Shown one piece after another: positions 9,796 to 59,896 of a DNA stretch of 64,000 nucleotides. Origin of the DNA: Actinoplanes subtropicus (GTDB lineage: Bacteria > Actinomycetota > Actinomycetes > Mycobacteriales > Micromonosporaceae). A program made the position numbers and the translations under genes. The number at the start of each line of letters is the position of its first letter. The stretch's first letter is position 1. Under the pieces are notes generated by a model. It ran no database searches. It saw only the letters and a program-made list of their open reading frames with translations, and had not been told where the DNA came from. Where the stretch lies: positions 292,112 to 356,111 of the forward strand of contig NZ_JOJL01000027.1 of the NCBI RefSeq assembly GCF_000721705.1, in the 5' to 3' direction.

Positions 9796-9809
9796 GGGAC
9801 CTGCGGCCC
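9796..9809. promoter_or_regulatory. DosR-type box shared by alcohol dehydrogenase and ppdK
   Basis: GGGACCTGCGGCCC sits in a longer palindrome TAGGGACC...GGCCCTA. It is 48 bp from the ATG of both divergent genes. A second partial copy, GGGACCTGTGCGGGCC, starts at 9818 on the ppdK side. Such symmetric placement suggests co-regulation of both genes by the DevR encoded at 16546-17190 (inference). Confidence 0.7.
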
Positions 9810-9857
9810 TACTCGCCGGGACCTGTGCGGGCCTACCAACAAAGGGAGGAGGTAGTG

Positions 9858-12464
9858 ATGGCCATGTACGTGTACGACTTCATCGAGGGCAACAAGGACC
9901 TCAAGGACCTGCTCGGCGGCAAGGGCGCGAACCTCGCCGAGATGACCCGGATGGGCCTGCCGGTCCCGCCCGGATTCACGATCACGACCGAGGCGTGCCG
10001 GGAGTACCTGCGCACGAACTCGGTGCCGGCCGGGCTGCTCGCCGAGGTGGAGCACCACCTGCGGCAGATGCAGGCGCGCATCGGGCGCACCTTCGGCGAC
10101 CCCCGCGACCCGCTGCTGTTGTCGGTCCGCTCGGGCGCCAAGTTCTCGATGCCCGGGATGATGGAGACGATCCTCGACATCGGCCTGAACGACGCGACCG
10201 TGTCCGGGCTGGCGAAGCAGAGTGGCGACGACCGGTTCGCCTGGGACTCCTACCGCCGGCTGATCCAGATGTTCGGCCGGACGGTGTTCGACATCCCGGC
10301 CGGCGAGTTCGAGGGCGGCGACGACCCGCGGGAGCTGGTCGAGGCGTACAAGAAGGTCTTCCAGGCCCACACCGGCCGCGAGTTCCCGCAGGCCGTGCAC
10401 GAGCAATTGTTCCTCGCGATCAATGCCGTGTTCCGGTCGTGGAACGCCGAGCGGGCGGTCCTCTACCGGCGGCAGGAGCGGATCCCGCAGGACCTGGGCA
10501 CCGCGGTCAACGTGATGGCCATGGTCTTCGGCAACCGGGGCGAGGACTCGGGAACCGGGGTGGCCTTCACCCGCGACCCGGCCACCGGGCGGCGCGGCAG
10601 CTACGGCGACTACCTGCGCAATGCGCAGGGCGAGGACGTCGTGGCCGGCATCCGCAACACCATGAGCCTGGCCGAACTGGCCACCGTCGACCCGGCGAGC
10701 TACGGGCAGTTGCTGTCCATCATGCAGCGGCTGGAGCAGCGCTACCGGGACCTGTGCGACATCGAGTTCACCATCGAGAACGGCAAGCTGTGGATGCTGC
10801 AGACCCGGGTCGGCAAGCGCACCCCGGCCGCCGCGTTCGTGATCGCCGCGCAGCTGGTCGACGAGGGCACCATCACCCTGGACGAGGCGCTGCACCGGGT
10901 CACCGGCGAACAACTCGCCCAGCTGATGTTCCCCAGCTTCGACGACGCCACCGCTCCCCCGCCGCTGACCACCGGTGTGCCCGCGTCACCGGGCGCCGCG
11001 GTGGGCGCGATCGTCTTCGACTCCGCCGCCGCGGCCGCCGCGACCGGCCCGGTCATCCTGGTGCGCCGGGAGACCAACCCGGACGACCTGCCCGGCATGA
11101 TCGCCGCGCAGGGCATTCTGACCAGTCGCGGCGGCAAGACCTCGCACGCCGCGGTCGTGGCCCGGGGCATGGGCAAGACCTGCGTCTGCGGCGCCGAGGA
11201 ACTCCGGCTCGACGGCGACACGCTGGTCGTGGGCGGCCGGACGTTGCACGCCGGCGACATCATCTCGATCGACGGCACGAACGGGCGCGTCTACGCCGGC
11301 GAGGTGCCGGTGCACCCGTCCAAGGTGGTGCGCTACTTCGAGGGCCAGCTGACCGCGCACGGCGACCCGCTGCTGTCCGCGATCGAGCGCCTGATGATCC
11401 ACGCCGACCACACCGCCCGGCTCGACGTGCACGCGAACGCCGACAACGGGCCCGACGCGGCCCGCGCCCGGCGGTTCGGCGCGACGGGCGTGGGACTCTG
11501 CCGCACCGAGCACATGTTCCTCGGCGACCGGCGGGTGCTGGTCGAGCGGCTGATCCTGGCCGAGAACGACAACGATCGGGACGCGGCCCTGGCCGGGCTG
11601 CTTCCGTTGCAGCGCAAGGACTTCGAGGAGCTGTTCACGGCGATGGACGGGCTGCCGGTCACGATCCGGCTCATCGACCCGCCGCTGCACGAGTTCCTGC
11701 CCTCCCTGGAGGAGCTGACCGCGCGGGTCGCCCGGGCCGAGGCGCTGGGCGAGGACCCCGGGCGGGACGGCGTGCTGCTCGCCGCGGTACGCCGGATGCA
11801 CGAGCAGAACCCGATGCTGGGGCTGCGCGGCGTACGGCTGGGCTTGGTTGTTCCGGGTTTGTTCGCCATGCAGGTGCGCGCGGTCGCCGAGGCCGCCGCG
11901 GCCCGCAAGGCCGCCGGCGGCGATCCCCGGCCGGAGATCATGGTTCCGCTGGTCGGAGCAATTCAGGAGCTCGAGATCGTACGGGCGGAAGCCGAGTCGG
12001 TCCTGGCCTCGGTGCCCGGCGCCCCGCCGATCCGGATCGGCACGATGATCGAGGTCCCGCGCGCGGCGCTGACCGCCGGGCAGATCGCGGGCGCGGCGGA
12101 GTTCTTCTCCTTCGGCACCAACGACCTGACCCAGATGACCTGGGGCTTCTCCCGGGACGACGTGGAGGGCGCGTTCTTCGGCCGCTACCTGGAGCTGGGC
12201 GTCTTCGCGGCATCGCCGTTCGAGTCGATCGACGCGGACGGCGTCGGCGAGCTGGTCCGGATCGCGGTCGCACGCGGCCGCGCGGTCCGGCCGGAGCTGA
12301 CCGTGGGCGTCTGCGGCGAGCACGGCGGCGACCCCGCCTCGGTGCGCTTCTTCCACGACGCGGGCCTGGACTACGTGTCCTGCTCGCCGTTCCGGGTGCC
12401 GATCGCCCGGCTGGAGGCCGGCCGCGCGGCCCTGACCGGGGCAACCGGCTCGGACAGCCGATGA
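9858..12464 (+). CDS. ppdK: Pyruvate, phosphate dikinase
   Basis: 868 residues, full length for the family. The enzyme interconverts pyruvate, ATP and phosphate with phosphoenolpyruvate, AMP and pyrophosphate. The N-terminal ATP-grasp part opens with GGKGANLAEMTRMGLPVPPG; the swivelling domain carries the catalytic histidine in GGKTSHAAVVARG (about residue 430); the C-terminal PEP-binding barrel has GLCRTEHMF, FGTNDLTQMTWGFSRDD and VCGEHGGDP with the acid/base cysteine. A strong AAAGGGAGGAGG precedes the ATG at 9858. In an energy-limited cell it allows PPi-saving glycolysis or PEP supply. It is preceded by a DosR-type box and overlapped at its end by a small gene. Confidence 0.95.
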   Translation: MAMYVYDFIEGNKDLKDLLGGKGANLAEMTRMGLPVPPGFTITTEACREYLRTNSVPAGLLAEVEHHLRQMQARIGRTFGDPRDPLLLSVRSGAKFSMPGMMETILDIGLNDATVSGLAKQSGDDRFAWDSYRRLIQMFGRTVFDIPAGEFEGGDDPRELVEAYKKVFQAHTGREFPQAVHEQLFLAINAVFRSWNAERAVLYRRQERIPQDLGTAVNVMAMVFGNRGEDSGTGVAFTRDPATGRRGSYGDYLRNAQGEDVVAGIRNTMSLAELATVDPASYGQLLSIMQRLEQRYRDLCDIEFTIENGKLWMLQTRVGKRTPAAAFVIAAQLVDEGTITLDEALHRVTGEQLAQLMFPSFDDATAPPPLTTGVPASPGAAVGAIVFDSAAAAAATGPVILVRRETNPDDLPGMIAAQGILTSRGGKTSHAAVVARGMGKTCVCGAEELRLDGDTLVVGGRTLHAGDIISIDGTNGRVYAGEVPVHPSKVVRYFEGQLTAHGDPLLSAIERLMIHADHTARLDVHANADNGPDAARARRFGATGVGLCRTEHMFLGDRRVLVERLILAENDNDRDAALAGLLPLQRKDFEELFTAMDGLPVTIRLIDPPLHEFLPSLEELTARVARAEALGEDPGRDGVLLAAVRRMHEQNPMLGLRGVRLGLVVPGLFAMQVRAVAEAAAARKAAGGDPRPEIMVPLVGAIQELEIVRAEAESVLASVPGAPPIRIGTMIEVPRAALTAGQIAGAAEFFSFGTNDLTQMTWGFSRDDVEGAFFGRYLELGVFAASPFESIDADGVGELVRIAVARGRAVRPELTVGVCGEHGGDPASVRFFHDAGLDYVSCSPFRVPIARLEAGRAALTGATGSDSR

Positions 12465-12796
12465 CCGGCGAGATCACCGTCGTACCCGTGCTGGACGGCG
12501 ACCGCCAGGTCGGCGCCTGGATAGTAGGGCCGGACTCGGCGACCTACCGCCCGGTCGTCGACGTCACCCGGCTGGCCGGCGCCGCCCTGGCCACGGCGGC
12601 CGCGGTCACGATCGCGGCCACCGCCGTGGTCGCCGCCACCCGGCGGCGGACGGCGATCGGCCGGGTCACGATGGGGCCCGGCGGGTGGGTCAGCGTCAAG
12701 CGCGCCGCTTGTCCGCCGCTGTGCGACGGCTCCCCGCGGCCGTGGTGGGCACGCCTGCTCGGCGCGCACCGCCTGGTCGTCCGGTCCCGGCCGTGA
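12461..12796 (+). CDS. Small protein of unknown function overlapping ppdK
   Basis: 111 residues, not recognised. The ATG at 12461 overlaps the ppdK stop (ATGA), so it is probably translated by coupling to ppdK. An acidic N-terminal part (ITVVPVLDGDRQVGAW) is followed by one hydrophobic segment of alanine, valine and threonine (about residues 38-62, LAGAALATAAAVTIAATAVV) and then a basic, CPPLCDG-containing tail. This looks like a single-pass membrane protein with the tail possibly inside. The link to ppdK suggests a local partner but no function can be assigned. Confidence 0.6.
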   Translation: MTGEITVVPVLDGDRQVGAWIVGPDSATYRPVVDVTRLAGAALATAAAVTIAATAVVAATRRRTAIGRVTMGPGGWVSVKRAACPPLCDGSPRPWWARLLGAHRLVVRSRP

Positions 12797-12810
12797 GCGG
12801 AGTCCCCGGA

Positions 12811-13527: not shown

Positions 13528-13981
13528 TCTGGCTCACGCTGCTGCTCCACGCCGCCTTGGCCCCGGAGTCGCCGATCCGGTAGATGCCGTACACCCCGGC
13601 CGCGCCGATGGCCAGCGACAACACCGCCACGATGCCGGTCACCACGGTGGACATCGCTTGCGTCCGCCGCTGGAGCCACCAGATGACCACGGCCAGCGCG
13701 GCGATCGGGATCGCGTAGAAGATCGCGCTGTCGCCCAGCTCGGTGTGCTGGTGCAGGGTCGCGGATTCCGGCACCCGGCGCTCCAGCCACTCGCCTGCGC
13801 TGGTGGTCAGCGGCACCAGCAGCACCACCAGCACGGACAGGATCGCGTTCGGCCCGGCCAGCCGGCGCCGGATCGCCGGCGAGAGGGCGGTGAGCACGAG
13901 CAGCAGCGCGGACAGCGGGAGGAGCACGACGATCGCGTGCACCAGCAGGACATGGGCCGGCAGCCCGTTGACGGTGTTCAT
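13499..13981 (-). CDS. DUF2231-like four-helix membrane protein
   Basis: 160 residues from the ATG at 13981 (MNTVNGLPAHVLLVHAIV). Four hydrophobic segments can be seen at about 10-30, 42-60, 90-108 and 118-138, with histidines in the first (PAHVLLVHA) and between helices (LHQHTELGD), the pattern of DUF2231 membrane proteins, some of which are associated with haem or redox roles. The tail is hydrophilic. Its 3' end overlaps the VIT-family gene by 29 bases, so the two form an operon. Function is not known. Confidence 0.7.
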   Translation of the reverse strand: MNTVNGLPAHVLLVHAIVVLLPLSALLLVLTALSPAIRRRLAGPNAILSVLVVLLVPLTTSAGEWLERRVPESATLHQHTELGDSAIFYAIPIAALAVVIWWLQRRTQAMSTVVTGIVAVLSLAIGAAGVYGIYRIGDSGAKAAWSSSVSQNESGEQPPR

Positions 13982-14040
13982 GCCGCAGAAGGTTAGGGAC
14001 GGGAATCTTGGAGTTTTCCCATCGACGGCCCGCATACTTG

Positions 14041-14706
14041 GTGCCCGTGGCGTACCTGCTGGTCGTGGAGGACGACCGTGAGCTGGGCGAGCTGCTGCTT
14101 CGGGTGTTCGGCGGGGCCGGTTACACCGCCGACCTGGCCCCCGACGGCCAGGCCGGGCTGCATCGGGCCCTCACCCGCCGCTACGACCTGCTGATCATCG
14201 ACCGGGGGCTGCCCGCCATCGAGGGCCTCGACCTGCTGGCCCGGCTGCGGCGCAGCGGGGTGCCGGCGCCCGCGCTCATCCTCACCGCGCTCGGCACGGT
14301 CGCCGACCGGGTCGCCGGGCTCGACGGCGGCGCCGAGGACTACCTGGTCAAGCCGTTCGAGCTGGACGAGTTGCTGGCCCGGGTCCGCGTGCTGCTGCGC
14401 CGCCCGGCCGCGCCCGCCGGACACGTGCTGCCGGTCGGCGGCGCCGAGTTCGACCTGATCACCCGGACGGTCACCGGCGGGGACGGCGAGCCGGTCACGC
14501 TCTCCGGCCGGGAGAGCGACCTGCTGCGCCTGCTCGCCGAGAACCCGGCCCGGGTGTTCACCCGGCGCGAGATCGTCGCCACCGTCTTCCCCGAGTCGAC
14601 CACCGAGACCCTGGCCGACACGTACGTGCACTACCTGCGCCGCAAGCTCGGCCCGGCGGTGATCGCCACCGTGCGCGGCGCCGGCTATCAGCTCGGCCGC
14701 CGGTGA
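14041..14706 (+). CDS. OmpR/PhoB-family response regulator
   Basis: 221 residues. Receiver domain at about 4-115 with the acidic pocket VVEDDRELG, the phosphoacceptor aspartate in LLIIDRGLPAIEG, the conserved threonine region LILTALG and lysine in YLVKPFE. A winged-helix DNA-binding domain follows (LSGRESDLLRLLAENP, and the recognition helix region TYVHYLRRKLG). The start is taken as GTG at 14041; GTG at 14047 is also possible. The stop overlaps the histidine kinase start (GTGA), making a two-component operon. The signal and targets are not evident; it is divergent from the membrane genes at 13981. Confidence 0.9.
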   Translation: MPVAYLLVVEDDRELGELLLRVFGGAGYTADLAPDGQAGLHRALTRRYDLLIIDRGLPAIEGLDLLARLRRSGVPAPALILTALGTVADRVAGLDGGAEDYLVKPFELDELLARVRVLLRRPAAPAGHVLPVGGAEFDLITRTVTGGDGEPVTLSGRESDLLRLLAENPARVFTRREIVATVFPESTTETLADTYVHYLRRKLGPAVIATVRGAGYQLGRR

Positions 14707-15929: not shown

Positions 15930-16544
15930 TCAGATCGGCACGGACCATTTCAGGCACGTGCCGGACGGGGTGTTCGGGCCGAGCGTGAAGGTGCCGCCGC
16001 GGTGCTCGGCGCGGTGACGCAGGTTCGCCGTGCCGCTGCTGCGGGTGCTGGCGCCCAGGCCGACGCCGTCGTCGCACACCTGCATCGTGAGGCGGCCCGG
16101 ACCGTCGGAGTCGCCGGATTCGACGATCAGGTCGACCTCGACCCGGCCGGCCCGGGCGTGCCGGGCGACGTTGCTGAGGCTCTCGCGCAGCACGGCGGTG
16201 AGGTCGTCGACGACGTCGCCGGCATCGGCCAGGAGGGTGTCCACCGGTCCGCTGAAGCGCAGCGCGGGCGTGCAGCCGAGCGGGCCGGCCGACTCGGTGA
16301 CCAGCTCGAGGACGCGGGCGCGCAGTCCCTGCGGGCCCTTGGCCGCGGCGTGCTGGATGGCGAAGATCGTGCTACGGATCTGGGCGATCGTGTCGTCGAG
16401 GTCGTCGATCACCGCGGCGACGCGGGGCGCCACCGGGTGTCCGCCCATCCGCGCGGCAGCGCCCTGCAACGCCAGGCCGGCGGCGAACAGCCGCTGAATG
16501 ATGTGGTCGTGCAGGTCGGCCGCGATCCGGTCGCGCTCGTTCAT
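15930..16544 (-). CDS. devS: DevS/DosT-like histidine kinase core lacking GAF sensor domains
   Basis: 204 residues, against roughly 580 for mycobacterial DevS. It begins almost exactly at the HisKA_3 dimerisation domain: ERDRIAADLHDHIIQRLFAA contains the phosphorylated histidine, and the HATPase domain follows (LRESLSNVARHA N box, CDDGVGLG, SGTANLRHRAEHRGG). The two haem-binding GAF domains that sense oxygen, NO or CO in DevS/DosT are absent. It starts 1 base after the devR stop (TGACATG), so translation is probably coupled. Either the kinase takes its signal from a partner protein, or it is the surviving end of a longer gene whose sensor part was lost before devR was placed in front. The catalytic residues look intact. 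Confidence 0.85.
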   Translation of the reverse strand: MNERDRIAADLHDHIIQRLFAAGLALQGAAARMGGHPVAPRVAAVIDDLDDTIAQIRSTIFAIQHAAAKGPQGLRARVLELVTESAGPLGCTPALRFSGPVDTLLADAGDVVDDLTAVLRESLSNVARHARAGRVEVDLIVESGDSDGPGRLTMQVCDDGVGLGASTRSSGTANLRHRAEHRGGTFTLGPNTPSGTCLKWSVPI

Positions 16545-16545: not shown

Positions 16546-17190
16546 TCAGGTGTGCGGGTGTTCGCCGAGCAGGCGGGTGGCCAGGACGGCCGCCTGGGTG
16601 CGGCGCTCCAGGCCGAGTTTGGCGAGCAGGCTGGAGACGTAGTTCTTCACCGTCTTCTCGGCCAGGAACATCCGGCCGGCGATCTCCCGGTTGGTCAGGC
16701 CCTCGGCGATGAATTCCAGGATCCGCCGCTCCTGGTCGGTCAGGCCGGCCAGCTCGCGCGGCTGCTCGACGCCGTGCCGGATCCGCTCCAGCACCCGCTG
16801 GGTCACCGCCGGATCGAGCAACGACTGCCCCTCCGCCACCCGGTGCACCGCGTCGACCAGGTCGGTGCCGCGGATCTGCTTGAGCACGTACCCGGCGGCG
16901 CCGGCCATGATCGCGGCGAACAGGGCCTCGTCATCCTCGTACGAGGTCAGAATCAGGCCTTTGATCGTCGAATCGATCGCCCGCACGTCCCGGCACACGT
17001 CGATGCCGTTGCCGTCCGGCAGCCGGGCATCCAGGATCATCACATCGGGCCGGAAGGCCGGGATACGGCGGGCCGCCTCCTGAGCCGAGCCGGACTCGCC
17101 GACGACCTCGATGTCACCGTCGGCCTCGAGCAGGTCGACCAGGCCGCGGCGGACCACCTCGTGGTCGTCGAGAAGAAAAACTCGGATCAT
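16546..17190 (-). CDS. devR: DosR/DevR dormancy response regulator (NarL/LuxR family)
   Basis: 214 residues, very similar in layout to mycobacterial DosR. The receiver domain starts VFLLDDHEVVRRGLVDLL and has the phosphoacceptor in LDARLPDGNGI; conserved LILTSY and a lysine at GYVLKQIRG follow. The HTH domain reads GLTNREIAGRMFLAEKTVKN then YVSSLLAKLGLERRTQAAV; the threonines in EKTV and RRTQ correspond to DosR positions phosphorylated by Ser/Thr kinases in mycobacteria. DosR activates hypoxia and dormancy genes through GGGACT-type palindromes. A matching box lies 35 bp upstream of its start, so autoregulation is likely, and over twenty similar boxes occur through the window. It is co-transcribed with the devS-like kinase core. 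Confidence 0.95.
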   Translation of the reverse strand: MIRVFLLDDHEVVRRGLVDLLEADGDIEVVGESGSAQEAARRIPAFRPDVMILDARLPDGNGIDVCRDVRAIDSTIKGLILTSYEDDEALFAAIMAGAAGYVLKQIRGTDLVDAVHRVAEGQSLLDPAVTQRVLERIRHGVEQPRELAGLTDQERRILEFIAEGLTNREIAGRMFLAEKTVKNYVSSLLAKLGLERRTQAAVLATRLLGEHPHT

Positions 17191-17225: not shown

Positions 17226-17239
17226 GGGCCGAAAGTCCC
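17226..17239. promoter_or_regulatory. DosR-type box upstream of devR
   Basis: GGGCCGAAAGTCCC, 35 bp upstream of the devR ATG. The right half AAAGTCCC is close to the mycobacterial DosR consensus. Suggests positive autoregulation. Confidence 0.7.
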
Positions 17240-17261: not shown

Positions 17262-17354
17262 TCAGGAGGTGATCCGCGCCGGCTTGTGGGTGAACTGCTC
17301 GATGTCGGCGGCGGTCACGTCCAGCAGATGATAGGCGAGATCCTCCTGCCTCCA
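17262..17354 (-). pseudogene. Short coding-like remnant upstream of devR
   Basis: On the minus strand about 30 codons ending at a TGA (17262-17264) read like the end of a real protein (EDLAYHLLDVTAADIEQFTH, then KPARITS). No start codon is available in this frame before it runs into the box at 17384-17397. It may be the 3' tail of a lost gene. The parent family was not recognised. Confidence 0.25.
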
Positions 17355-17383: not shown

Positions 17384-17397
17384 GGGCCGTTGGTCCC
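17384..17397. promoter_or_regulatory. DosR-type box upstream of the aldolase remnant
   Basis: GGGCCGTTGGTCCC, the best match to the local consensus, 77 bp upstream of the ATG at 17475. The promoter has outlived its gene, which is reduced to about 40 codons. Confidence 0.65.
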
Positions 17398-17474: not shown

Positions 17475-17678
17475 ATGAGCGCGCGGCTACGGCTGGCCCA
17501 GTGCGGTCTGAGCGCCGGCAAGAAGGCCCGGCTGCACCGCATCCTCTACAAGCACGGCCTGGGCATCGGCACTGCCCTGTTCCTGCCTACGACCACGGTC
17601 TCGGGCACCGGCCAGCCGGCCGGCACGAGCACCACCGGGCAGGTGCTGCCCCGCAGGCCGACCGGCCCGGCGCCGTAG
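17475..17678 (+). pseudogene. Remnant of a class I fructose-bisphosphate aldolase gene (5' end only)
   Basis: The first 40 codons read KKARLHRILYKHGLGIGTAL then FLP, the opening of DeoC/LacD-type class I fructose-bisphosphate aldolases, whose next residues are usually a PYDQG-like segment with HG. That segment (YDHGLGHRP) is found one frame over, so there is a frameshift near 17588, and no further aldolase sequence follows: the reading frame runs antisense through the 3' end of the neighbouring USP gene. A good ribosome binding site (GAGAGGAG) and a DosR-type box precede the ATG. It is a truncated former member of the regulon; no enzyme can be made. Confidence 0.6.
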
Positions 17679-18481
17679 AGCAGCTCGGCGAAGCGCCCGT
17701 GCCGGCCGATCCCGGCGACCAGCAACCGGCCACGATGCGACGCCCGGTCGATGGTGCAGGCGAGGTCCAGATCCGACACGACCAACCGATCGACGGTCAC
17801 CTCGGGGTACCGCTGCGACCATTCGGTCAGCGCGTCGGTCAACCGGGCGTCGGCGGCCCGGCGTTCCTCGGCGTATCCGCCTCGCACGACCACCGGCGCC
17901 CGGCCGTCCGCCGCGCTCGGCCGGACCCACATGTGCACCGCCACCAGCCGGGCGCCCCGCTGGGCGGCCTCGGCGAACGCGTATCCGAGCGTGGCGGCCC
18001 CGGACGGGCGGGCCGACGACGCCACCACGACCGGGCCGTCGTGGCCGGCCCCGCGGTTCACCAGCAGCGGGCATTCGCTGTGGTGGGCCAGGTAGGCGGC
18101 GGTCGAGCCCCAGCTCGGCCGGGCGTACGGATCGTCGCGGTGCCCGACCACGAGCAGCTGCGCCTCGGCCGAGCAGTCGGTCAGCGTCGCGGCGGCGCCA
18201 CCCTCCAGCAGTTCGGTGGCGATCGGCACGCCCGGGCCGGCGAGCGCCGCCCGCCGCCGCGTGACCTCCAGCAGCCGTACGCCGTCCGCCTTCGAGGGCA
18301 CGGAATCCCGGCTCCGGAATACGCCCCGATATCGTCCTGGCCACACGTGCACGATCAGCAACGGGGCTCCGCAACGCGCCGCCTCAGCAGCGGCCAGATC
18401 GACCGTGCCGGGCGTGCTGCGCGAGCCGTCCACCCCGGCCACGACCGGCCGGTTCCGCGGTGTCGAAGCTTCGCTGCCCAT
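17546..18481 (-). CDS. Tandem-domain universal stress protein
   Basis: 311 residues with two USP domains (about 10-145 and 150-285). Domain 1 opens PVVAGVDGSRSTPGTVDLAA and ends in CPLLVNRG; its nucleotide loop is degenerate (VVGHRDDPYARPSWGST). Domain 2 has VAGIGRHGRFAELLYGAGP and ends CPVVLVPAG, again with a weakened ATP-binding loop. The last 25 residues after the domain overlap the antisense aldolase remnant and look unrelated to USPs, so the natural 3' end may have been replaced at the junction. Tandem USPs are DosR targets in mycobacteria. A box lies 58 bp upstream of the ATG at 18481. Confidence 0.85.
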   Translation of the reverse strand: MGSEASTPRNRPVVAGVDGSRSTPGTVDLAAAEAARCGAPLLIVHVWPGRYRGVFRSRDSVPSKADGVRLLEVTRRRAALAGPGVPIATELLEGGAAATLTDCSAEAQLLVVGHRDDPYARPSWGSTAAYLAHHSECPLLVNRGAGHDGPVVVASSARPSGAATLGYAFAEAAQRGARLVAVHMWVRPSAADGRAPVVVRGGYAEERRAADARLTDALTEWSQRYPEVTVDRLVVSDLDLACTIDRASHRGRLLVAGIGRHGRFAELLYGAGPVGLRGSTCPVVLVPAGWPVPETVVVGRNRAVPMPRPCL

Positions 18482-18539: not shown

Positions 18540-18553
18540 GGGCCGTTGGTCAC
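18540..18553. promoter_or_regulatory. DosR-type box upstream of USP 17546-18481
   Basis: GGGCCGTTGGTCAC, 58 bp upstream of the USP start. Its GGTCAC half also supplies the stop codon (TGA, minus strand, 18550-18552) of the SHOCT-protein gene, so gene end and operator overlap. Confidence 0.65.
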
Positions 18554-18831
18554 GCTTCGGCCGAGCCGAGGTCGGGTGGCACCGACAGGGGATGACGATC
18601 GTCGTCCCGGGCCGCGAGCCCCTCGATCGCGTGCCGGTACTGGGTCGTGCTGATCTCCCCGGCCAGCCGCTTGGCCACGAGCACACCCTCGAGGCTCTCC
18701 GGCTCGGCGGCGTGCGGAGTGTCCGGCTCCGACGGCGCGGCGGCCTGGGCAACGGTCGGCCGGGACCACACGGTGACCAGGCAGATCGTGACGACCAGCG
18801 AGACGAACAGAATCAGGAACAACATCCTCAT
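18550..18831 (-). CDS. Small membrane-anchored SHOCT-domain protein
   Basis: 93 residues. An N-terminal membrane helix (MRMLFLILFVSLVVTICLVT) is followed by a flexible acidic linker and a C-terminal SHOCT motif (LEGVLVAKRLAGEISTTQYR). SHOCT modules are short helical segments often found at protein ends, thought to help oligomerisation. The ATG at 18831 has GGGAGGTG 2-8 bases upstream. A DosR-type box is 45 bp upstream, and a similar SHOCT membrane protein with its own box is found at 51655-51909. Function is unknown; a small membrane accessory of the dormancy response is an inference. Confidence 0.75.
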   Translation of the reverse strand: MRMLFLILFVSLVVTICLVTVWSRPTVAQAAAPSEPDTPHAAEPESLEGVLVAKRLAGEISTTQYRHAIEGLAARDDDRHPLSVPPDLGSAEA

Positions 18832-18876: not shown

Positions 18877-18890
18877 GGGACCTACGTCCC
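18877..18890. promoter_or_regulatory. DosR-type box upstream of the SHOCT gene
   Basis: GGGACCTACGTCCC, a near-perfect palindrome 45 bp upstream of the SHOCT-protein ATG at 18831. With 18900-18913 it forms a closely spaced pair between divergent genes. Confidence 0.7.
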
Positions 18891-18913: not shown

Positions 18914-18972
18914 TGCGGCGGCGACCTGGCCGGCCGGACGATGGAGGCGGACCCACGGAAGGGGTGAATCCC

Positions 18973-20856
18973 GTGACCACCACCCTCGTCCCCGCCGGCC
19001 TGAGCTCGGCGGAGGCCGCGGCCCGCCTGGCCGCCGACGGGCCCAATCTCGTCGCCAAGCCGCCGCGCCGCCGCCTGATCGCCCGGGTCGGCCGGCAACT
19101 GGCCGATCCGCTGGTCGCGCTCCTGCTGGCCTGCGCCGTGGTGACAACCATCCTGCGCGACCTGCCGGACACCGCGATCATCGTGCTGGTCGTGCTGGTC
19201 AACACCGTGATCGGCGTCGTACAGGAGGTGCGCGCGGACGCGGCGATCGCCGCCCTGGACGACCTGGCCGCGCCGACGGCGCGGGTGGTGCGGGACGGCC
19301 ACGACCTGATGGTTCCGGCCGCGTCGTTGGTTCGAGGCGATTGCGTACGCCTGGAGGCCGGCGACATCGTGCCCGCCGACCTGGAGCTGACGGTGGCCGA
19401 GCGGGCGTCGTTCGACGAGTCCTCGCTGACCGGCGAGTCGGTGCCGGTGTCCCGGGCGGCCGGCGAGCCGGCCGGCTCCGGCACCGTGCTCACCGCCGGC
19501 CGCGCGACGGGTCTCGTCACCCGCACCGGCGCGGCCGGCTCGCTCGGCCGGATCGCCGCCCTGGTGGCGCACACCAAGCCGGGCCCGACCCCGCTGCAGC
19601 GCCGGCTGGCCGCGCTCGGCCGGATCCTGGGCATGGCCGCGATCGCCGTCTCCGCGGTCGTCTTCGCCCTCGGCGTGCTGGCCGGCCAGCCGGTCGTCCG
19701 GATGGCGATCACCGCGGTCAGCCTGACGGTCGCGGCCGTGCCGGAGAGCCTGCCCCCGGTGGTCACCCTGGCCCTCGCGCTCGGCGCCCGCCGGATGGCC
19801 CGCACCCGCGCCATCCCCCGCCACCTGCACGCTGTCGAGACGCTCGGCTCGGTCACCGTGATCGCGGCCGACAAGACCGGCACGCTGACCGAGAACCGGA
19901 TGTCCGTGCAGCGCGCGGTGACCGCCGACGGCACGCGCTACACGATCGACGGAAGCGGCTACGGTCCGGCGGGAACGATCCGGCCGTACGTCGACAAGCA
20001 GGTGCGGCGGCTCGCGCTGGCCGGCCTGCTGTGCAACGACGCCGGCCTGATCCCGCCCGCCGGCGACGGCGACTGGGCCGCGGCCGGCGACCCGATGGAG
20101 GCCGCCCTCGTCGCGTTCGCCGCCCGGTGCGGGCTCGACCCGGACGCCGAGCGGGCCCGCGCGCCCCGGGTCGGCGAGCGCCCCTTCGACCACACGACGC
20201 TGCGGATGTCCACAGTGCACGCCCTCGACACGGGCGAGTACCTGGTCGTGGCGAAGGGCGCGCCCGAAGCGGTTCTGGACGGCGACGAGACCCTGACCGC
20301 CGCCGCCCGGGAGCTGGCCGGGGACGGCCTGCGGGTGCTCGCCGTCGCGACCGCCGTCACCGGGAGACCCGACGCCGCCCCGGCGTTCCGTCCGCTCGGC
20401 ATCGTCGGGATCGGTGACCCGCTGCGGGCGGCCGCGGTGGGTGCCGCCGCGGCGTTCGAGCGGTCCGGCGTACGACTGCTCATGATCACCGGAGATCACC
20501 CCGCGACCGCCGCGAGCATCGGCAGCAAGCTGGGCATTCTCGGCCCGGGCGACGTCGTCGCCCGTAGCGACGACGGACCGCTGACCGAGCAGGACGTCGC
20601 GCATGCCCGGGTGTACGCCCGGACGCGGCCCGAACGCAAGCTCGACATCGTGGCCGCCCTGCAGGACCGCGGCGAGGTGGTGGCGATGACCGGCGACGGC
20701 GTGAACGACGCGCCCGCCCGCGAGCTGAGGCTCAGGCCAGCACGACCGGGCAACCGGAACGCCGTGCCACCGCACCGACCAGGGCGGTGGCATAGGCGTT
20801 CGTGGGCCGGGCCAGCACGGCCAGGCAGCAGGACCGGCCGGCCGCGGTCAGGGTGA
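18973..20856 (+). pseudogene. CtpF-type P-type cation ATPase, truncated after the P domain
   Basis: The first 580 codons are a good P2-type cation ATPase: N-terminal [16 protein letters not shown], two membrane helices, [12 protein letters not shown] actuator motif, [17 protein letters not shown] in helix 4, [13 protein letters not shown] phosphorylation site, KGAPEAVLDGD nucleotide-binding domain and [11 protein letters not shown] hinge at 20692-20724. At that point similarity stops; the last 44 codons run antisense through a USP gene. The C-terminal six membrane helices, part of the transport path, are missing, so it should not transport. CtpF is a DosR-regulated ATPase in mycobacteria and a box precedes this gene. 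A matching C-terminal part lies inverted at 22723-23763. GTG 18973 is preferred (GGAAGGGG upstream); 18964 is possible. Confidence 0.8.
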
Positions 20857-21070
20857 TCGCGGGATCGATCGCGTTCCGGACGGAGACCGTGACCGGCACC
20901 TCCGGGTACTTGCCGGACCAGCGCTCCACGAGGTCCGGAAGCTCGGCCCCGTCCACGGTGGCCACCACCCGTACGGCCACGCCACGGCCCTGCGCCTCGT
21001 CGAAGGCGAGGCGCAGGACGTCCTCGGCGGTCCGCACCGCCAGGATGCCGGCGAGGACCGGCCCGGTCAT
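20732..21070 (-). CDS. Single-domain, degenerate universal stress protein
   Basis: 112 residues, shorter than a full USP domain of about 140. It has the start of the domain (GPVLAGILAVRTAEDVLRLA), the KYPEVPVTVSV strand and an ending GCPVVLA, but the usual GSRGRGG nucleotide loop is replaced by LARPTNAYATALVG, so ATP binding is doubtful. It looks like the second half of a tandem USP. The ATG at 21070 overlaps the stop of the CBS-BON gene (ATGA), making it the last gene of a gap-CBS-USP operon. Its 3' end lies at the junction with the truncated ATPase. Confidence 0.65.
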   Translation of the reverse strand: MTGPVLAGILAVRTAEDVLRLAFDEAQGRGVAVRVVATVDGAELPDLVERWSGKYPEVPVTVSVRNAIDPAITLTAAGRSCCLAVLARPTNAYATALVGAVARRSGCPVVLA

Positions 21071-21675
21071 GACGGCCGGCTCGACGCCACGACGACGGCG
21101 GCGACCCCGGGGACCGTACGCGCCAGCACCGTCACGATGCCCTGCTCGGTGTCGTCGTCGAAGTCGCCGGTCACCCGGGCGACGCCGCCGTCCACCACCG
21201 CCGTCCAGCGGTGGCCGTTCGCGTACTCGTCGAGCCGGTGCTGCACCTCGGCGGTGAGCACGTCGTCGCCGCGAACCATGGCGCGCAGGATGTCGCGGCG
21301 GCTGATGATGCCGACCACGGCGCCCGCGTCGAGGACCGGCATGCTGCGTACGTCGTGCTCCAGCATCTGCTCGGCCACCTCGGCGAGGTCGGCGTCCGGC
21401 CGGGTGGTGACCGGGTACGGCGACATCACCTCGACGACCATGCCGGGCCGGTCGGCCGGGTCGGTGTCCGGCCGCCGGAGGTGCGCGGTCGGGTCGGACG
21501 GCACCCGGTGCCAGAGCAGGTCACTCTCGCTCACCATGCCGACCAGCCGGCCACCGTCGTCGATCACCGGCAGCGCGGTCACCGCCTTCGCCGTGATCAG
21601 CTGGGCGGCGCTCTCCACCGTGGTCGTCTGTTTCACGGTGTGCACCGGGCTGCTCATGACATCCTTCGCGCGCAT
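21067..21675 (-). CDS. CBS-pair protein with C-terminal BON domain
   Basis: 202 residues. Two CBS motifs: residues about 1-60 (VMSSPVHTVKQTTTVESAAQ and ALPVIDDGGRLVGMVSESDL) and about 78-135 (VMSPYPVTTRPDADLAEVAE, SMPVLDAGAVVGIISRRD). A BON-like domain follows (about 140-200: LDEYANGHRWTAVVDGGVAR). CBS pairs bind adenine nucleotides; Hrp1, a CBS protein, is strongly DosR-induced in mycobacteria. BON domains are thought to contact membranes or ligands. ATG 21675 is chosen over GTG 21678 because GGAGGTG is 5 bases upstream of it. It is the middle gene of an operon with GAPDH before it. Confidence 0.85.
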   Translation of the reverse strand: MRAKDVMSSPVHTVKQTTTVESAAQLITAKAVTALPVIDDGGRLVGMVSESDLLWHRVPSDPTAHLRRPDTDPADRPGMVVEVMSPYPVTTRPDADLAEVAEQMLEHDVRSMPVLDAGAVVGIISRRDILRAMVRGDDVLTAEVQHRLDEYANGHRWTAVVDGGVARVTGDFDDDTEQGIVTVLARTVPGVAAVVVASSRPS

Positions 21676-21679
21676 CACG

Positions 21680-23763: not shown

Positions 23764-23764
23764 T

Positions 23765-38398: not shown

Positions 38399-38402
38399 GA
38401 CG

Positions 38403-47275: not shown

Positions 47276-47276
47276 G

Positions 47277-47900: not shown

Positions 47901-47924
47901 GGTGCCCACCTCCTTCTTCCGAGC

Positions 47925-48307
47925 AGAACCGGATCACCGAGCCCAGCAGCAGGCTCGCGAACCCGCCCCGGCCCCGGCTGCCGAGAACGATCAACTGTCC
48001 GTGCTCGGCCCCGGCCAGCAGCCGGGCCGCCGGATGCCCCGATCACCGGATCGCCCTCCACGTCGAGCTTCGGCGCCACGACCAGCGCCTCGTGGACGCC
48101 GTTGGCAGTGACGCCCTCGGCGTGCCGGCGAGCGTCGTCCAGGTAGACGTTGCTCGAGTCGTACCGGGCCTCGCGCCACTCCCAGTCGTAGACGTGCGTG
48201 ACCCGTAGCGGCAGTCCCCGGCGCTGTGCTTCGCGCGCCGCCCACCTCACCGCCGCCTTGCTGCAGTCGGCGCCGTCGGCGCCGACGATGATGGGATTGA
48301 CCTTCAT
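47925..48307 (-). pseudogene. Universal stress protein, frameshifted and truncated after the first domain
   Basis: From the ATG at 48307: PIIVGADGADCSKAAVRWAA, RGLPLRVTHVYDWEWREARY and VAPKLDVEGDPVIG are a normal USP start. At about 48035 one base is off; the continuation (LIVLGSRGRGGFASLLLGSV) with a canonical nucleotide loop is in another frame and ends at about 47940, where the pntA leader begins. The expected strand with CPV and any second domain are missing. A DosR-type box sits 64 bp upstream. Confidence 0.7.
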
Positions 48308-48371
48308 GACCGCTCCTCTCACGCTCTCCTTCCAGCGTGCGGCCGGGCAGGGTGGCAGGTCCCATCAGGAC

Positions 48372-48385
48372 GGGCCGATGGTCAC
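48372..48385. promoter_or_regulatory. DosR-type box upstream of the USP remnant
   Basis: GGGCCGATGGTCAC, 64 bp upstream of the ATG at 48307. The TCA in GGTCAC is also the stop codon (minus strand) of the truncated WS/DGAT frame. Confidence 0.6.
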
Positions 48386-48723
48386 GTGCTGAGGGCCATC
48401 AGGTGCGGGAGAGCGGCCTCGACCAGCGTCTGATCGTCGCCGAGCGCCGGGCAGCCGGCGGTCTCGAAATGCCGCCAGGGGTCGAACGCCTCGTCGTCGG
48501 CCCAGACCGGCGGCCCGCAGCCCGGCGGCGTCCGCACCAGCCGCTGCCGCAGCCGGGGCACTCGGGCGGCCCGGTCGCCGAGCAGCCGAGCACAGGCCGC
48601 CGCGGTCAGCGGCCGGTCGAGGCCCAGCACGACGCCGAGGTGCTCGGGGACCGGCCCGCGGTGGATCGCCAGGAAGGCGAGGTCGGCATCGTCCGCCCGC
48701 TCGATTCCGGGCGCGGCGTTCAT
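48382..48723 (-). pseudogene. WS/DGAT (wax ester/triacylglycerol synthase) N-terminal fragment
   Basis: 113 codons matching the start of the WS/DGAT family: ADDADLAFLAIHRGPVPEHL, VVLGLDRPLTAAACARLLGD, RVPRLRQRLVRTPPGCGPPV and AFDPWRHFETAGCP. Full proteins have about 450 residues; this one ends before the catalytic HHxxxDG motif, and its stop codon lies inside the DosR-type box of the next operon. Mycobacterial Tgs1, a triacylglycerol synthase, is a DosR target. The ATG at 48723 is 3 bases after the USP stop, so it is the last gene of a CBS-USP operon. A further, longer WS/DGAT remnant lies at 58653. Confidence 0.7.
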
Positions 48724-48726: not shown

Positions 48727-49155
48727 TCAGTACTTGCCGCGCACCACGAGCACCGGGCAGTGCGCGTGCTGGACGCAGAGCTGACTCACCGAGCCGAGCA
48801 GCGTGCCGGCGAAGCCGCCGCGCCCGCGGGAGCCGACCACCAGCAACGCGGCGTGCGCCGACTGGTCGATCAGCATCTGGGCGGGATGCCCGGGCAGCAC
48901 CGTCTCCACCACCTCGACGTCCAGGGGCGGGTCGTAGCCGAGCGCCTCCCGGACCGACTCGCCGAGCAGCTTGCCGGCGGCATCGCCGAAGTCCTCGTGC
49001 GCCAGCACGCCCCAGCCGGTGTACGGCGTAACCTCCCAGGCGATGACGGGCCGCAGCCGCGCCTTGGTCAGGCGGGCCTGGTCGAGTGCCCAGCGCAGGG
49101 CGGCCTTCGACGACGGCGAGCCGTCGACACCGACCACCACATCCGTGTCAGCCAT
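48727..49155 (-). CDS. Single-domain universal stress protein, intact
   Basis: 142 residues, exactly one USP domain. VVVGVDGSPSSKAALRWALD at the start, VLPGHPAQMLIDQSAHAALL, the canonical ATP-binding loop VVGSRGRGGFAGTLLGSVSQ and final HCPVLVVRG. All nucleotide-binding glycines are present, so ATP binding is expected. It lies 13 bp downstream of the CBS-BON gene in one operon controlled from the box at 49889. The best-preserved USP in the window. Confidence 0.92.
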   Translation of the reverse strand: MADTDVVVGVDGSPSSKAALRWALDQARLTKARLRPVIAWEVTPYTGWGVLAHEDFGDAAGKLLGESVREALGYDPPLDVEVVETVLPGHPAQMLIDQSAHAALLVVGSRGRGGFAGTLLGSVSQLCVQHAHCPVLVVRGKY

Positions 49156-49168: not shown

Positions 49169-49837
49169 TCACGCCACGCCGAATGCGGGCCCGTACGGGT
49201 AGCGGTCGTCGACCTCGAAGGTCACCTCGTCGGTCACCCCGGCGACGCCGGCGACCCGCCGGGCCAGCCGGGCGGCCTCGTTCGCCGTGGACCACAGTTC
49301 GACCTTGCCGGTCAGCGTCACCGTGCCGTCCTCGACGCTCACGGTCACCGATCCGGCGTCCTCCCCGAGCCCGGCGGTGATGTCGGCGACGATGTCCTCG
49401 TCCGGGCGCAGGTGGACCTTCAACAGGTCGCCGCGGGTCACTATGCCGACCAGGCGGCCGAGATCGTCGACCACGGGCAGCCGTTTCACCCCTTCGGCAT
49501 CCATCCGCCGGGCCGCCGCCACCAGCGAGGTGCCGTTGAGCACGGTGACCGCCGGGGCGCTCATCAGGTTCGCCGCGGTCCGGGCCAGCGCCTTGCCGCG
49601 TTCACCCCGACGACGCCGGCTCTCGAACATCCGCGGCGTCTCGTCCCCGGCGTACTCGATCTTGCGCAACAGGTCCGCCTCGCTGACCACACCGGAGACC
49701 CGCAGGAACGAGTCCACCACCGGCACGGCGCTGACGCGATGCTCGATGAGCGTGTCCACCACCGAGCGGTAGGAGGCGCCCTGATCCACCGAGACGACCT
49801 TGGTGGTCATCACATCGTCCACAGTCCAGTTCTTCAT
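49169..49837 (-). CDS. CBS-pair protein with C-terminal BON domain
   Basis: 222 residues. CBS 1 (about 5-65: VDDVMTTKVVSVDQGASYRS, VSAVPVVDSFLRVSGVVSEA), a charged linker (MFESRRRRGERGKAL), CBS 2 (about 88-145: LMSAPAVTVLNGTSLVAAAR, VKRLPVVDDLGRLVGIVTRG) and a BON domain (about 150-215: VTVSVEDGTVTLTGKVELWS). It is a paralogue of the protein at 21067-21675 with the same architecture. CBS pairs usually sense AMP/ATP. ATG 49837 is the start; a DosR-type box is 51 bp upstream. Heads the operon CBS-BON, USP, WS/DGAT fragment. Confidence 0.88.
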   Translation of the reverse strand: MKNWTVDDVMTTKVVSVDQGASYRSVVDTLIEHRVSAVPVVDSFLRVSGVVSEADLLRKIEYAGDETPRMFESRRRRGERGKALARTAANLMSAPAVTVLNGTSLVAAARRMDAEGVKRLPVVDDLGRLVGIVTRGDLLKVHLRPDEDIVADITAGLGEDAGSVTVSVEDGTVTLTGKVELWSTANEAARLARRVAGVAGVTDEVTFEVDDRYPYGPAFGVA

Positions 49838-49888: not shown

Positions 49889-49902
49889 GGGCCATTGGGC
49901 CC
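49889..49902. promoter_or_regulatory. DosR-type box upstream of CBS-BON/USP operon
   Basis: GGGCCATTGGGCCC, a perfect palindrome in a CAGGGCC...GGCCCTG context, 51 bp upstream of the ATG at 49837. A further GGGCCC repeat follows at 49908. Confidence 0.7.
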
Positions 49903-54279: not shown

Positions 54280-54293
54280 GGGACCAACGGCCC
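54280..54293. promoter_or_regulatory. DosR-type box upstream of the plsB operon
   Basis: GGGACCAACGGCCC in a GAGGGACC...GGCCCTG context, 72 bp upstream of the ATG at 54366. Places storage-lipid synthesis under the dormancy regulator (inference). Confidence 0.65.
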
Positions 54294-54365
54294 TGCCTGC
54301 CCGCCACCACGGCGGAGAAGTCTGGAGTGCGAACCCGCATCCGTACGCACCCCTGCGAGGCGGCG

Positions 54366-56201
54366 ATGAGCCCGACCCTCAGCGAGCATCTGTCGATCCG
54401 CGCCGAAGCCCTCGCGGCCCGCCGCCGGGCGGACGCCCCGGAGGTGGTGATGCTGCTCGCCGACGACGATTTCGCCGGGCGGGTCGCGGAGCTGGCCGGA
54501 TCACTGGGTCGCCCGGCCGGCGAGGTGCGCGGGGAGGTGGCCGGCTACCTGCGCGAGATGGGCGCCACCCGCACCAGGCGCGCCACCAGCGACTGGGCCC
54601 GCTTCAGCCGCTGGCTGACCCGCGCCCACGAGCTGATCATCGACCCGGAGCAGGCGCACCGGTTGCGGTCGCTCGATCGTACGCAATCGTTGTTGTTCCC
54701 CTTCTCGCACCGGTCCTATCTGGACGGTGTCACGGTGCCGGCGGCGATCTCGCAGAACGGCGTCGAGCCGCCGTTCGTGCTGGCCGGGGCGAACCTCGAC
54801 GTTTTCCCGTTCAACCGCCTGCTGCGCCGTTCCGGGTACGTCTACATCCGGCGCTCGACCGCGGACAACCCGGTGTACCGGTTCGCGCTGCGCTGGTACG
54901 TCGCCCAGATGATCCGGAATCGGCGCAACCTGTGCTGGTCGATCGAGGGCGGCCGGACCCGCACCGGCAAGCTCCGCCCGCCGACGTACGGCCTGTTGCA
55001 CTATGTGACCGAGGCGCTCGACGCGGACGCCGCCGCCAAGGCCCTGATCGTCCCGGTCTCGATCGTCTACGAGCAGCTGCACGAGGTGCCGCTGGTCACC
55101 ACCGAGGCGCGCGGCATCGGCAAGCGTCCCGAGGACCTGCGCTGGCTGTGGAGCTTCGGGCGCTCCCAGCGGGAACGTTTCGGCCGGGCGTACGTGGAGT
55201 TCGGCGAGCCGATCCCGCTGCGCGACCGCCTCGCCGAGATGCGCGGCGACGACCCGTCGGTGCGCGCGGTCGAGCGGATCGCCCTGGAGACCTCCCACCG
55301 GATCAACCGGGCCACCCCGGTGACCACCACGGCCGTGGTCTGCCTGGCGCTGCTGGCCGCCGACCGGGCGCTCACCCTCGACGAGGTGCTGGCCACGGTC
55401 GCCCCGCTGGCCCGCTACCTGGCCCAGCGCGGTCGCCCGGTGGCCGGCGCGGCGAATCTAACCGACCGGGCCACCATCCATCGCGCGCTCGACGACCTGT
55501 CGCGCTCGGGGGTGCTGGCCGGCTTCGACGGCGGCACCGAGACGATCTGGTCGATCGCGCCCGGGCAGCACCTGGTGGCCGCGTTCTACCGGAACACCGC
55601 CGTGCACGTGCTGGTCGACCGGGCGATCGGCGAGCTGGGCCTGGTCGCCGCCATGGAGGACGGCGAGAACGGCCTGGCCACCGCGAACCGGGAGATCCTA
55701 CGGCTGCGTGACCTGCTCAAGTTCGACTTCTTCGTCCCGTCCCGCCGGGAGTTCGCCCGCGAGATGGCCGCCGAGCTGGCGGTCGCCGACCCGCGGCAGG
55801 CCGGGGAGCTGCACGAGTTCGGCCCGGCCGACGCCCGGCGGTGGCTGACCGAGAGCGAACTGCTCGTCGCCCACCTGGTGCTGCGGCCGTTCCTGGAGGC
55901 GTACCTCGTGGTGGCCGACCGCTTGGCCGCCTGGCCCGACGACGAACCGTTCGACCCCGACGGCTTCCTCGAGGAGTGCCTGCGGCTCGGCCGGCAGTGG
56001 GCGATGCAGAAGCGGATCGCCAGCGAGGAGTCGGTGTCGCTGGAGCTGTTCAAACCGGCCCTGCGGCTGGCCGAGCACCGCGGCCTGCTGGCCGACGGCG
56101 CGGAGGTCGCCAAGCGGCGTGCGGACTTCCGGGACGAAATCCAGGCGACCGTACGCCGGGTGGCCGTCATCGCCGGTCTGCACCGCCGGGACCGGTCGTG
56201 A
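54366..56201 (+). CDS. plsB: Glycerol-3-phosphate 1-O-acyltransferase
   Basis: 611 residues. Acyltransferase motifs: HRSYLDG (HX4D, in LLFPFSHRSYLDGVTVPAAI), the glycerol-phosphate-binding SIEGGRTRTGKLRPPTYGLL, and LIVPVSIVYEQLHEV. The long helical C-terminal part (LVDRAIGELGLVAAMEDGEN) is as in mycobacterial PlsB2-type enzymes. It acylates sn-1 of glycerol 3-phosphate, the first step to phospholipid and triacylglycerol. It heads an operon with plsC, gpsA and a WS/DGAT gene, all overlapping; the same gene order (plsB, HAD-plsC, WS/DGAT) is known in mycobacteria. ATG at 54366. Confidence 0.92.
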   Translation: MSPTLSEHLSIRAEALAARRRADAPEVVMLLADDDFAGRVAELAGSLGRPAGEVRGEVAGYLREMGATRTRRATSDWARFSRWLTRAHELIIDPEQAHRLRSLDRTQSLLFPFSHRSYLDGVTVPAAISQNGVEPPFVLAGANLDVFPFNRLLRRSGYVYIRRSTADNPVYRFALRWYVAQMIRNRRNLCWSIEGGRTRTGKLRPPTYGLLHYVTEALDADAAAKALIVPVSIVYEQLHEVPLVTTEARGIGKRPEDLRWLWSFGRSQRERFGRAYVEFGEPIPLRDRLAEMRGDDPSVRAVERIALETSHRINRATPVTTTAVVCLALLAADRALTLDEVLATVAPLARYLAQRGRPVAGAANLTDRATIHRALDDLSRSGVLAGFDGGTETIWSIAPGQHLVAAFYRNTAVHVLVDRAIGELGLVAAMEDGENGLATANREILRLRDLLKFDFFVPSRREFAREMAAELAVADPRQAGELHEFGPADARRWLTESELLVAHLVLRPFLEAYLVVADRLAAWPDDEPFDPDGFLEECLRLGRQWAMQKRIASEESVSLELFKPALRLAEHRGLLADGAEVAKRRADFRDEIQATVRRVAVIAGLHRRDRS

Positions 56202-59569: not shown

Positions 59570-59775
59570 GGATCGGGTGGTCGCCGAAGAGCAGCACCAT
59601 CGGACCCACCGCAACCACGTACGCGGTGTGCCCCTGGTCGTTGGTGATCAATTTGCCGTATCCGTGGTAGATCGCGTCCACCTCGGCGAAGGACATGCCG
59701 ACCCGCGCCCCGGCCGCGGTACGCACCGAGCCGGTGTCGGTCTCGGCCCGGCTTCGTCGCTGTCGTCGACATGTC
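59551..59775 (-). pseudogene. Fragment of an unidentified (probably exported) protein
   Basis: On the minus strand a protein-like stretch reads GARVGMSFAEVDAIYHGYGK, LITNDQGHTAYVVAVG and VLLFGDHPIRPGVGSI, then breaks off exactly where the WS/DGAT remnant begins on the other strand. The sequence resembles the conserved end of small exported actinobacterial proteins but I cannot name the family. A beginning with a signal peptide is not found upstream. It appears to be the end of a gene left by a rearrangement. Confidence 0.45.
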
Positions 59776-59841
59776 GTCGTCCCGTGGTCCGGCGGCCGGA
59801 CCCATCACCTCCAGCCCAGCGCGGCCGCCCGTCGCGGGACA

Positions 59842-59855
59842 GGGCCCAAGGACAC
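59842..59855. promoter_or_regulatory. Weak DosR-like box, distal, upstream of the P1B ATPase
   Basis: GGGCCCAAGGACAC in an ACAGGGCCC context, 140 bp upstream of the ATG at 59996. The left half is good, the right half poor. Confidence 0.35.
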
Positions 59856-59882
59856 GATCCCGGCGGGACAAAGGGGCTCTCC

Positions 59883-59896
59883 GAGCCGATGGTCCC
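59883..59896. promoter_or_regulatory. DosR-type box upstream of the P1B ATPase-hemerythrin gene
   Basis: GAGCCGATGGTCCC, one base from the best consensus, 99 bp upstream of the ATG at 59996. Confidence 0.55.

Follow-up and report, generated by a model that had tools for sequence, protein, structure and literature searches.

What protein, if any, reads the short near-palindromic motif that recurs upstream of genes along 64 kb of the genome of Actinoplanes subtropicus, and how far does its control extend? The stretch analyzed here (the window; 64,000 nucleotides, C27:292112-356111, the right end of its contig in a genome of 11.26 Mb on 215 contigs) encodes on its minus strand, at 16546-17190, a NarL-family response regulator, devR/osdR (Pfam Response_reg and GerE), and the first-pass annotation took the 14-bp palindromes around this gene for a dense DosR/OsdR-type regulon. 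In this Actinoplanes-type bacterium the window probably represents the local core of a hypoxia regulon under DevR/OsdR, which would reach other contigs; the earlier reading recognized the right kind of system and gave it too wide an extent, and the observation is real but trimmed here. Site positions are window coordinates, and bit scores of single boxes come from the matrix scan. Gene calling by our own codon-pair model gave 71 genes in the window, 63 of them beginning after 8.7 kb. The genus sample comprises 67 genomes, and the collections compared may contain one genome twice.

The palindromes of the first-pass annotation are present as sequences where it had placed them, and the motif is concentrated 5′ of starts in the window. 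Two matrices were used, neither of them holding a site from the window: the first was built from 26 published Streptomyces coelicolor OsdR sites, the second from 54 sites at 26 Micromonosporaceae devR loci of other records (one of the 54, from L093, being of the pflB type), and 1.49 Mb of the same genome served as control. At a threshold of at least 10 bits, the S. coelicolor matrix finds 19 matches in the window (11 upstream of starts, 1 otherwise intergenic, 7 within genes), versus 131 in the control (11, 9, and 111, respectively). At 12 bits or more the counts are 12 and 28, and those that are both intergenic and upstream of a start number 8 in the window and 0 in the control. With the Micromonosporaceae matrix at the same threshold, 12 of 16 matches in the window lie upstream of starts versus 4 of 21 in the control, an enrichment per kb of about 18-fold overall and about 70-fold for upstream matches. 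Such a scan against genomic control had been called for in advance by the annotation, and the density of matches is not equal elsewhere. In the 11.26-Mb genome there are 8 copies of the exact core GGGACYWWCGGCCC, five of them in the window (0.57% of the genome), two on contig C61 and one on C68, versus 4 copies of its backward control; this core was picked after the window had been inspected, so that its odds are not a clean test, which is provided by the matrices.

Judged by its orientation relative to neighboring genes, the box is directional (GGGACCWWCGGCCCTG) and aimed at the gene. At one-sided promoters the asymmetric form GGGAC...GGCCC faces the gene 38 times and the opposite way 4 times (window 6:1, C61 and C68 1:0, relatives 31:3). 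A search of the 67 genus genomes with GGGACCWWCGGCCCTG returned 126 sites, versus 9 for the backward pattern, with at least one site in 47 genomes. In a survey of 30 loci from 30 other genomes of the genus, all 30 sites are intergenic and 29 have a gene ahead within 250 bp; a gene lies only ahead in 15 cases and only behind in none.

DevR is the likely reader of these boxes, because its recognition helix is identical to that of Mycobacterium tuberculosis, its own box is conserved, and the two genus genomes without devR are also without the exact box. Over residues 1-212 the protein can be aligned with M. tuberculosis DevR (3c3w; 257 bits), and the recognition-helix stretch RMFLAEKTVKNYVS, which we take to contain the DNA-contacting residues, is the same in both. 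It is 94% identical to DevR of Actinoplanes aureus. Of the 44 relatives with a located start (55 loci tried), 41 have a box in the 120 bp upstream of devR, through which DevR would regulate its own gene. The regulator is present in 65 of the 67 genus genomes (E≤1e-80). The two genomes without it, G034 and G056, contain no exact core, while among the 65 devR-bearing genomes only G058 has none (Fisher p 0.0014); in G034 and G056 a kinase match at E≤1e-30 was not found either. These observations support the earlier proposal of control by the DevR at 16546-17190. Separately, many Actinoplanes genomes carry 2-3 devR copies of 85-94% identity, and among those listed the copies of G007 and G051 have an in-frame TGA.

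The regulon appears to reach outside the window, on the evidence of boxes at cydABDC, pflBA, pta-ackA and an adhP-like gene. Contig C61 carries cydA (Pfam Cyt_bd_oxida_I), cydB, cydD and cydC, the latter three above cut-off, as well as Acg-type genes; pflB and pflA were identified above cut-off on C68, and pta and ackA (Pfam) on C19, with a box 35 bp ahead of pta. Only 864 bp to the left of the window, at C27:291248, a box stands at the adhP-like gene, which scores slightly under its NCBIfam cut-off, and C39 has a one-mismatch site at an Acg-type gene. Some off-window one-mismatch sites are due to chance, because among the 42 inspected 10 are intergenic and just 6 of these 10 have a gene ahead within 250 bp. 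The pflB promoter could be followed through the genus, where 55 pflB matches were listed in 46 of the 67 genomes. Among the best 30 of these, our own genome being one and starts being located with tblastn, 28 have a box (26 directed at pflB, none reversed, 2 symmetric), versus 4 of 150 control stretches inside pflB. The joint absence of pflB and devR was not used as evidence, since pflB is missing in 21 of the 67 genomes anyway. On C68 (L215) a weak box at 13562-13575 also lies 24 bp before a beta-CASP/MBL-fold gene (13600-14568) near pflBA.

The annotation had further described the spacing of the boxes to start codons as constant. The distances are indeed clustered, mostly at 48-73 bp, but they range from 35 to 99 bp; what is nearly constant is instead the interval between the box and a -10-like element that follows it by about 24 bp. 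In a second count, of devR loci of relatives, the box stands 35-36 bp from the ATG with TAnnAA at offset 24-25 in 40 of 52, and this TAnnAA ends 6 nt ahead of the ATG in 48 of 52. Relative to the predicted -10, such spacing places the box center near -42.5 or -43.5. From the positions of box and TAnnAA a leaderless devR message is predicted, unless the TAnnAA belongs to a ribosome-binding site. Of 28 pflB promoters with a box, 27 have a [GC]CTG beginning at offset 27 or 28. In both devR and pflB promoters the proximal box would overlap the -35 region, as judged from the predicted -10. In the 23 promoters of the window, C61 and C68 the weighted -10 score peaks at offset 25. Regarding a second box, 12 of these 23 promoters are without another site of at least 3 bits within 70 bp, and no consistent second-box offset was found among the 23 (21-23 bp in a few; best offset z 2.3). 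We propose that phosphorylated DevR would bind the directional near-palindrome GGGACCWWCGGCCC followed by TG and, because at devR promoters of the genus the box sits where a -35 element would be, with the -10-like element 23-24 bp beyond, may act as an activator touching RNA polymerase.

Several observations weigh against this reading of the window. Loose forms of the palindrome are not in excess: GGGNCNNNNGNCCC with at most one mismatch was found 115 times versus 199 expected from shuffles, GGGCCGNTNGTCCC with at most one mismatch 272 times in the whole genome versus 852 for the pattern read backwards, GGGMCNWWNGKCCC 17 versus 25 times, and the core with one mismatch 57 times genome-wide versus 92 in its control, the last count serving for match location only. 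The window alone gives 6:1 for direction (p 0.125), and many orthologous devR promoters are inside the 38:4 count, for which reason more weight is put on the 30-locus survey. The exact 16-mer is absent from 18 of the 65 devR-bearing genomes, and the 21 genomes in which pflB was not found belong here as well. A permutation test finds no significant -10 spacing in the 23 promoters of the window, C61 and C68 (p 0.11; best offset, 47); the spacing is accepted because the devR and pflB promoter sets show it, not on this set alone. Finally, unphosphorylated or other NarL-type regulators may be readers; the genome contains 65 further DevR matches at E≤1e-10.

These points bear on two alternatives. 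According to the first, the boxes are a compositional by-product of 73% GC DNA and their spacing reflects selective picking. Loose patterns at or under chance level agree with it, as do the 7 of 24 window sites of at least 9.5 bits that fall within called genes and three boxes on the annotation's list, at USP-GyrI (41263, 5.7 bits), a ddn-like gene (50490, 6.1 bits) and a SHOCT gene (51991, 7.3 bits), which are of background strength: at 5.7-7.3 bits control DNA shows many upstream matches. The loose palindrome counts were dropped as evidence of enrichment, since none shows an excess. For the strong sites this explanation is refuted by the control scans, for the weak ones it may hold, and overall we regard it as very improbable, given upstream matches of at least 12 bits (12 in 64 kb versus 4 in 1.49 Mb), the wholly intergenic genus sites (30/30) and the pflB box in 28/30 loci versus 4/150 control stretches. 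According to the second alternative the boxes are real, but they are read mainly by a different regulator of the NarL family, or by several regulators in common. The 65 DevR-like matches favor it, and further promoters of box genes may be under other control; however, the best of these matches in the same genome is 43% identical, the recognition-helix stretch is that of M. tuberculosis DevR, the box precedes devR itself in relatives, and exact cores are missing where devR is missing. This, too, we consider improbable, and DevR control of the boxes remains the preferred reading.

More than twenty palindromes had been counted; 24 sites reach 9.5 bits, of which 17 are intergenic and 7 inside called frames, and 18 boxes are judged solid, namely 16 intergenic ones plus two (22754, 38443) that fall inside called frames but stand upstream of gap and hsp20. 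The site at 30167 (9.9 bits) was left out, as it precedes a doubtful small frame. The devR box itself (17226-17239) reads GGGACTTTCGGCCC on the minus strand, scores 18.4 bits and stands 35 bp from the ATG, with TAGGAA 23 bp past the box and 6 nt ahead of the ATG. An equally strong minus-strand box (17384-17397, 18.4 bits) precedes a small-gene remnant, consisting of the 26 C-terminal residues of a 91-residue gene (17265-17342). A box at 9796-9809 (14.4 bits) is placed between the divergent genes adh, for a zinc alcohol dehydrogenase (8707-9747, minus strand; Pfam ADH_N, ADH_zinc_N), and ppdK, for pyruvate phosphate dikinase (9858-12464, plus strand; TIGR01828 above cut-off), at 48 bp from each; these starts were placed at ATG, and the family searches were run on 8707-9768 and 9825-12464. 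Another (18877-18890, 16.2 bits) separates a divergent small gene (18550-18825, 51 bp) from the N-terminal part of ctpF (18964-20856, 73 bp).

The remaining minus-strand boxes precede the first universal stress protein gene (USP1, 17546-18442, Pfam Usp; box 18540-18553, 11.5 bits, 97 bp), gap (21680-22693, Pfam Gp_dh_N/C; box 22754-22767, 12.7 bits, 60 bp, inside the called ctpF C-terminal fragment), which is followed by a CBS-domain gene (21067-21678, Pfam CBS), and a gene without Pfam family (28811-29251; box 29322-29335, 12.7 bits, 70 bp). Three more, starting at 38327, 38385 and 38443 (38327-38456; 17.5, 13.8 and 13.8 bits), precede hsp20 (37875-38267) with the nearest at 59 bp, the box being triplicated there by a tandem repeat with a 58-bp unit. 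USP2 (38893-39804, Pfam) has a box at 39867-39880 (18.4 bits, 62 bp) and is followed by a flavodoxin-like gene (38403-38876, Pfam). A six-gene [NiFe]-hydrogenase operon (46125-41278) has its box at 46187-46200 (12.4 bits, 61 bp); its subunits are sulfhydrogenase-like, every one under the NCBIfam cut-off. A gene with a cNMP-binding domain (44543-45004) lies in this operon between those for the iron-sulfur and NAD-binding subunits. Boxes further precede an acg-type nitroreductase gene (46223-47200, NF047509 above cut-off; box 47262-47275, 17.4 bits, 61 bp), a disrupted frame containing parts of USP and alanine dehydrogenase genes (47249-48322; box 48372-48385, 14.1 bits, 49 bp) and a CBS-BON gene (49169-49822, Pfam; box 49889-49902, 17.5 bits, 66 bp), after which comes USP3 (48727-49155).

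On the plus strand, the box at 25670-25683 (10.6 bits) is 83 bp from a doxX-like gene (25767-26360, DoxX below cut-off), with a second, weaker site at 25693 (8.5 bits) and a GH65 gene following. The box at 54280-54293 (17.6 bits) is 33 bp from the called GTG of a plsB-like gene (54327-56201) whose start is uncertain, and which is followed by HAD-acyltransferase and gpsA genes (Pfam). A weaker box (59883-59896, 9.6 bits, 99 bp) precedes the gene for a P-type ATPase with a hemerythrin domain (59996-62299, Pfam). A single hypoxia regulon covering nearly all of the window beyond 8.7 kb is too broad a claim, because good boxes are lacking over about 30-37.8 kb, where the only sites found upstream of starts are those at 30167 and 35582 (4.0 bits), and because the matrix scan gave none for the VIT1/DUF2231/OmpR-histidine kinase (HK) block, nifJ, the FRE/FMN pair and adh2, the closest site to adh2 having 6.9 bits.

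How the regulator would receive its signal is a further question raised by this locus. The adjoining gene kinB (15930-16544, minus strand), whose ATG is one base past the devR stop codon, encodes the transmitter half of a DevS/DosT-type kinase: HisKA_3, from residue 3, and HATPase are the only domains found, without the GAF sensor domains. The orthologue of Actinoplanes sp. KI2 has two GAF stretches ahead of HisKA_3, and nucleotide homology starts at the kinB start; compared with its relatives, kinB has lost the sensor half. The KI2 sensor half as query finds three places in the genome, two weaker ones and kinA on C61, whose product of 561 residues has two GAF stretches, HisKA_3 and HATPase and was aligned to the DosT and DevS GAF structures. 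A low-oxygen signal would most likely come from this full-length twin-GAF kinase, because the kinase adjoining devR has lost its sensor half. Note also that kinA and the divergent cydA share one box, which points to cydA, and that a kinA-like gene is divergent beside devR in several Actinoplanes relatives (L091-L094, L096). Because the window has blocks in common with both KI2 devR loci, L097 (HK, OmpR regulator) and L099 (kinB, USPs), its organization suggests that two devR loci merged, with the loss of one devR and one sensor.

It is conceivable, although doubtful, that kinB still functions without a sensor, its transmitter setting the basal level of DevR phosphorylation (as kinase or phosphatase) while kinA senses oxygen. 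The HisKA_3 profile is matched over 1-65 of 68, the frame is free of stops and starts directly behind devR, and short proteins of the family occur on long contigs, such as P0108 (202 residues, on a contig of 432,733 bases). On the other hand, no other of the genus homologues listed is without a sensor half, the adjoining genes are broken, and an assembly error at the devR-kinB junction is possible. A claim that kinB is unique as a sensor-less kinase was softened in view of the short homologues P0051, P0084 and P0108 on long contigs; most short homologues listed sit on short contigs, where their genes are perhaps cut.

Broken genes are not confined to kinB. An inversion appears to have split the ctpF-like P-type ATPase gene: in a relative, residues 64-666 correspond to 18952-20718 on the plus strand and residues 631-790 to 23633-23145 on the minus strand, with gap and the CBS gene between the two parts. 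Of a pyruvate:ferredoxin oxidoreductase, the nifJ frame (23517-25664) covers just the C-terminal half (model 545-1166 of 1167), below the family cut-off, and behind the intact box at 48372 lie remains of USP, alanine dehydrogenase and wax-ester-synthase-like genes (47249-48723). The cluster could accordingly be in decay, with kinB and its neighbors as remnants and the boxes as relics of a regulon now out of function, and the small gene before devR, as well as the kinase homologues listed from the genus (open frames of at least 480 residues versus 238 here), fit such a scenario. We nevertheless judge it unlikely, since devR, kinA, cydABDC, pflBA, pta-ackA, gap, hsp20, acg and the hydrogenase genes combine long open frames with strong boxes.

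The genus Actinoplanes is usually regarded as aerobic. Because the regulon extends to cydABDC, pflBA, pta-ackA and the adhP-like gene, it would apparently switch on, besides stress proteins, the bd oxidase and a fermentation route to formate, acetate, ethanol and H2, provided that these enzymes work. We tentatively advance, at somewhat less than even chances, that DevR acts as master switch for a facultative lifestyle in Actinoplanes, turning on pflB, pta-ackA, an adh, a hydrogenase and the bd oxidase through a directional box at a nearly fixed distance from the -10, with kinB in this strain as basal transmitter and an unlinked kinase as oxygen sensor. If this is true, the dormancy switch of mycobacteria and Streptomyces also governs fermentation and microaerobic respiration in Actinoplanes. 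The orientation of the box and the position of the -10 element supply a precise promoter code that can be tested, and a sensor-less kinase adjoining an intact regulator offers a natural test of the transmitter half alone.

Comparison with known systems places the window near S. coelicolor OsdKR (SCO0203/SCO0204). No literature linking Actinoplanes with DosR or with pyruvate formate was found, in a search mostly without subscription journals. As far as the main text of the OsdKR paper goes (PMC5069765), the form of the box is the same (consensus AGGGCCGATCGGCCCT, sites such as GGGACCTTCGGCCC), the regulator is of DevR type and regulates itself, and USPs, alcohol dehydrogenase, pyruvate phosphate dikinase and nitroreductase are clustered around it. 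The same main text is without the terms ‘cyd’, ‘pyruvate formate’ and ‘hydrogenase’, and its nitrate reductase genes were not found in the window annotation (PMC5069765). Compared with OsdKR, the adjacent kinase here is without its sensor half, and box direction and -10 distance are resolved. Acg- and hsp20-type genes are M. tuberculosis DosR targets and are shared with the window. The regulators of the two are closely similar. According to published accounts, the proximal DevR box of M. tuberculosis overlaps the -35 region (PMC3029386), which the box near -42 here matches, and one kinase gene, devS, adjoins the regulator while dosT is unlinked (PMC3029386, PMC5069765), an arrangement of one adjoining and one distant kinase gene that is found here as well. 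Unlike in M. tuberculosis, the window has an adjacent kinase without sensor half and, apparently, mostly one box per promoter, and the regulon has boxes at fermentation and bd-oxidase genes. In M. smegmatis, the hydrogenase Hyh is under DosR and said to mediate fermentation in hypoxia (PMC13098282); the comparison is with this description, and control of the window hydrogenase, with its family matches below cut-off, would follow from its box. The type of system is a known one with new content; what is added here to the first-pass annotation is a promoter code with direction, probable targets in fermentation and bd-oxidase genes, and a kinase that has no sensor, and the literature weakly hints that these may be new.

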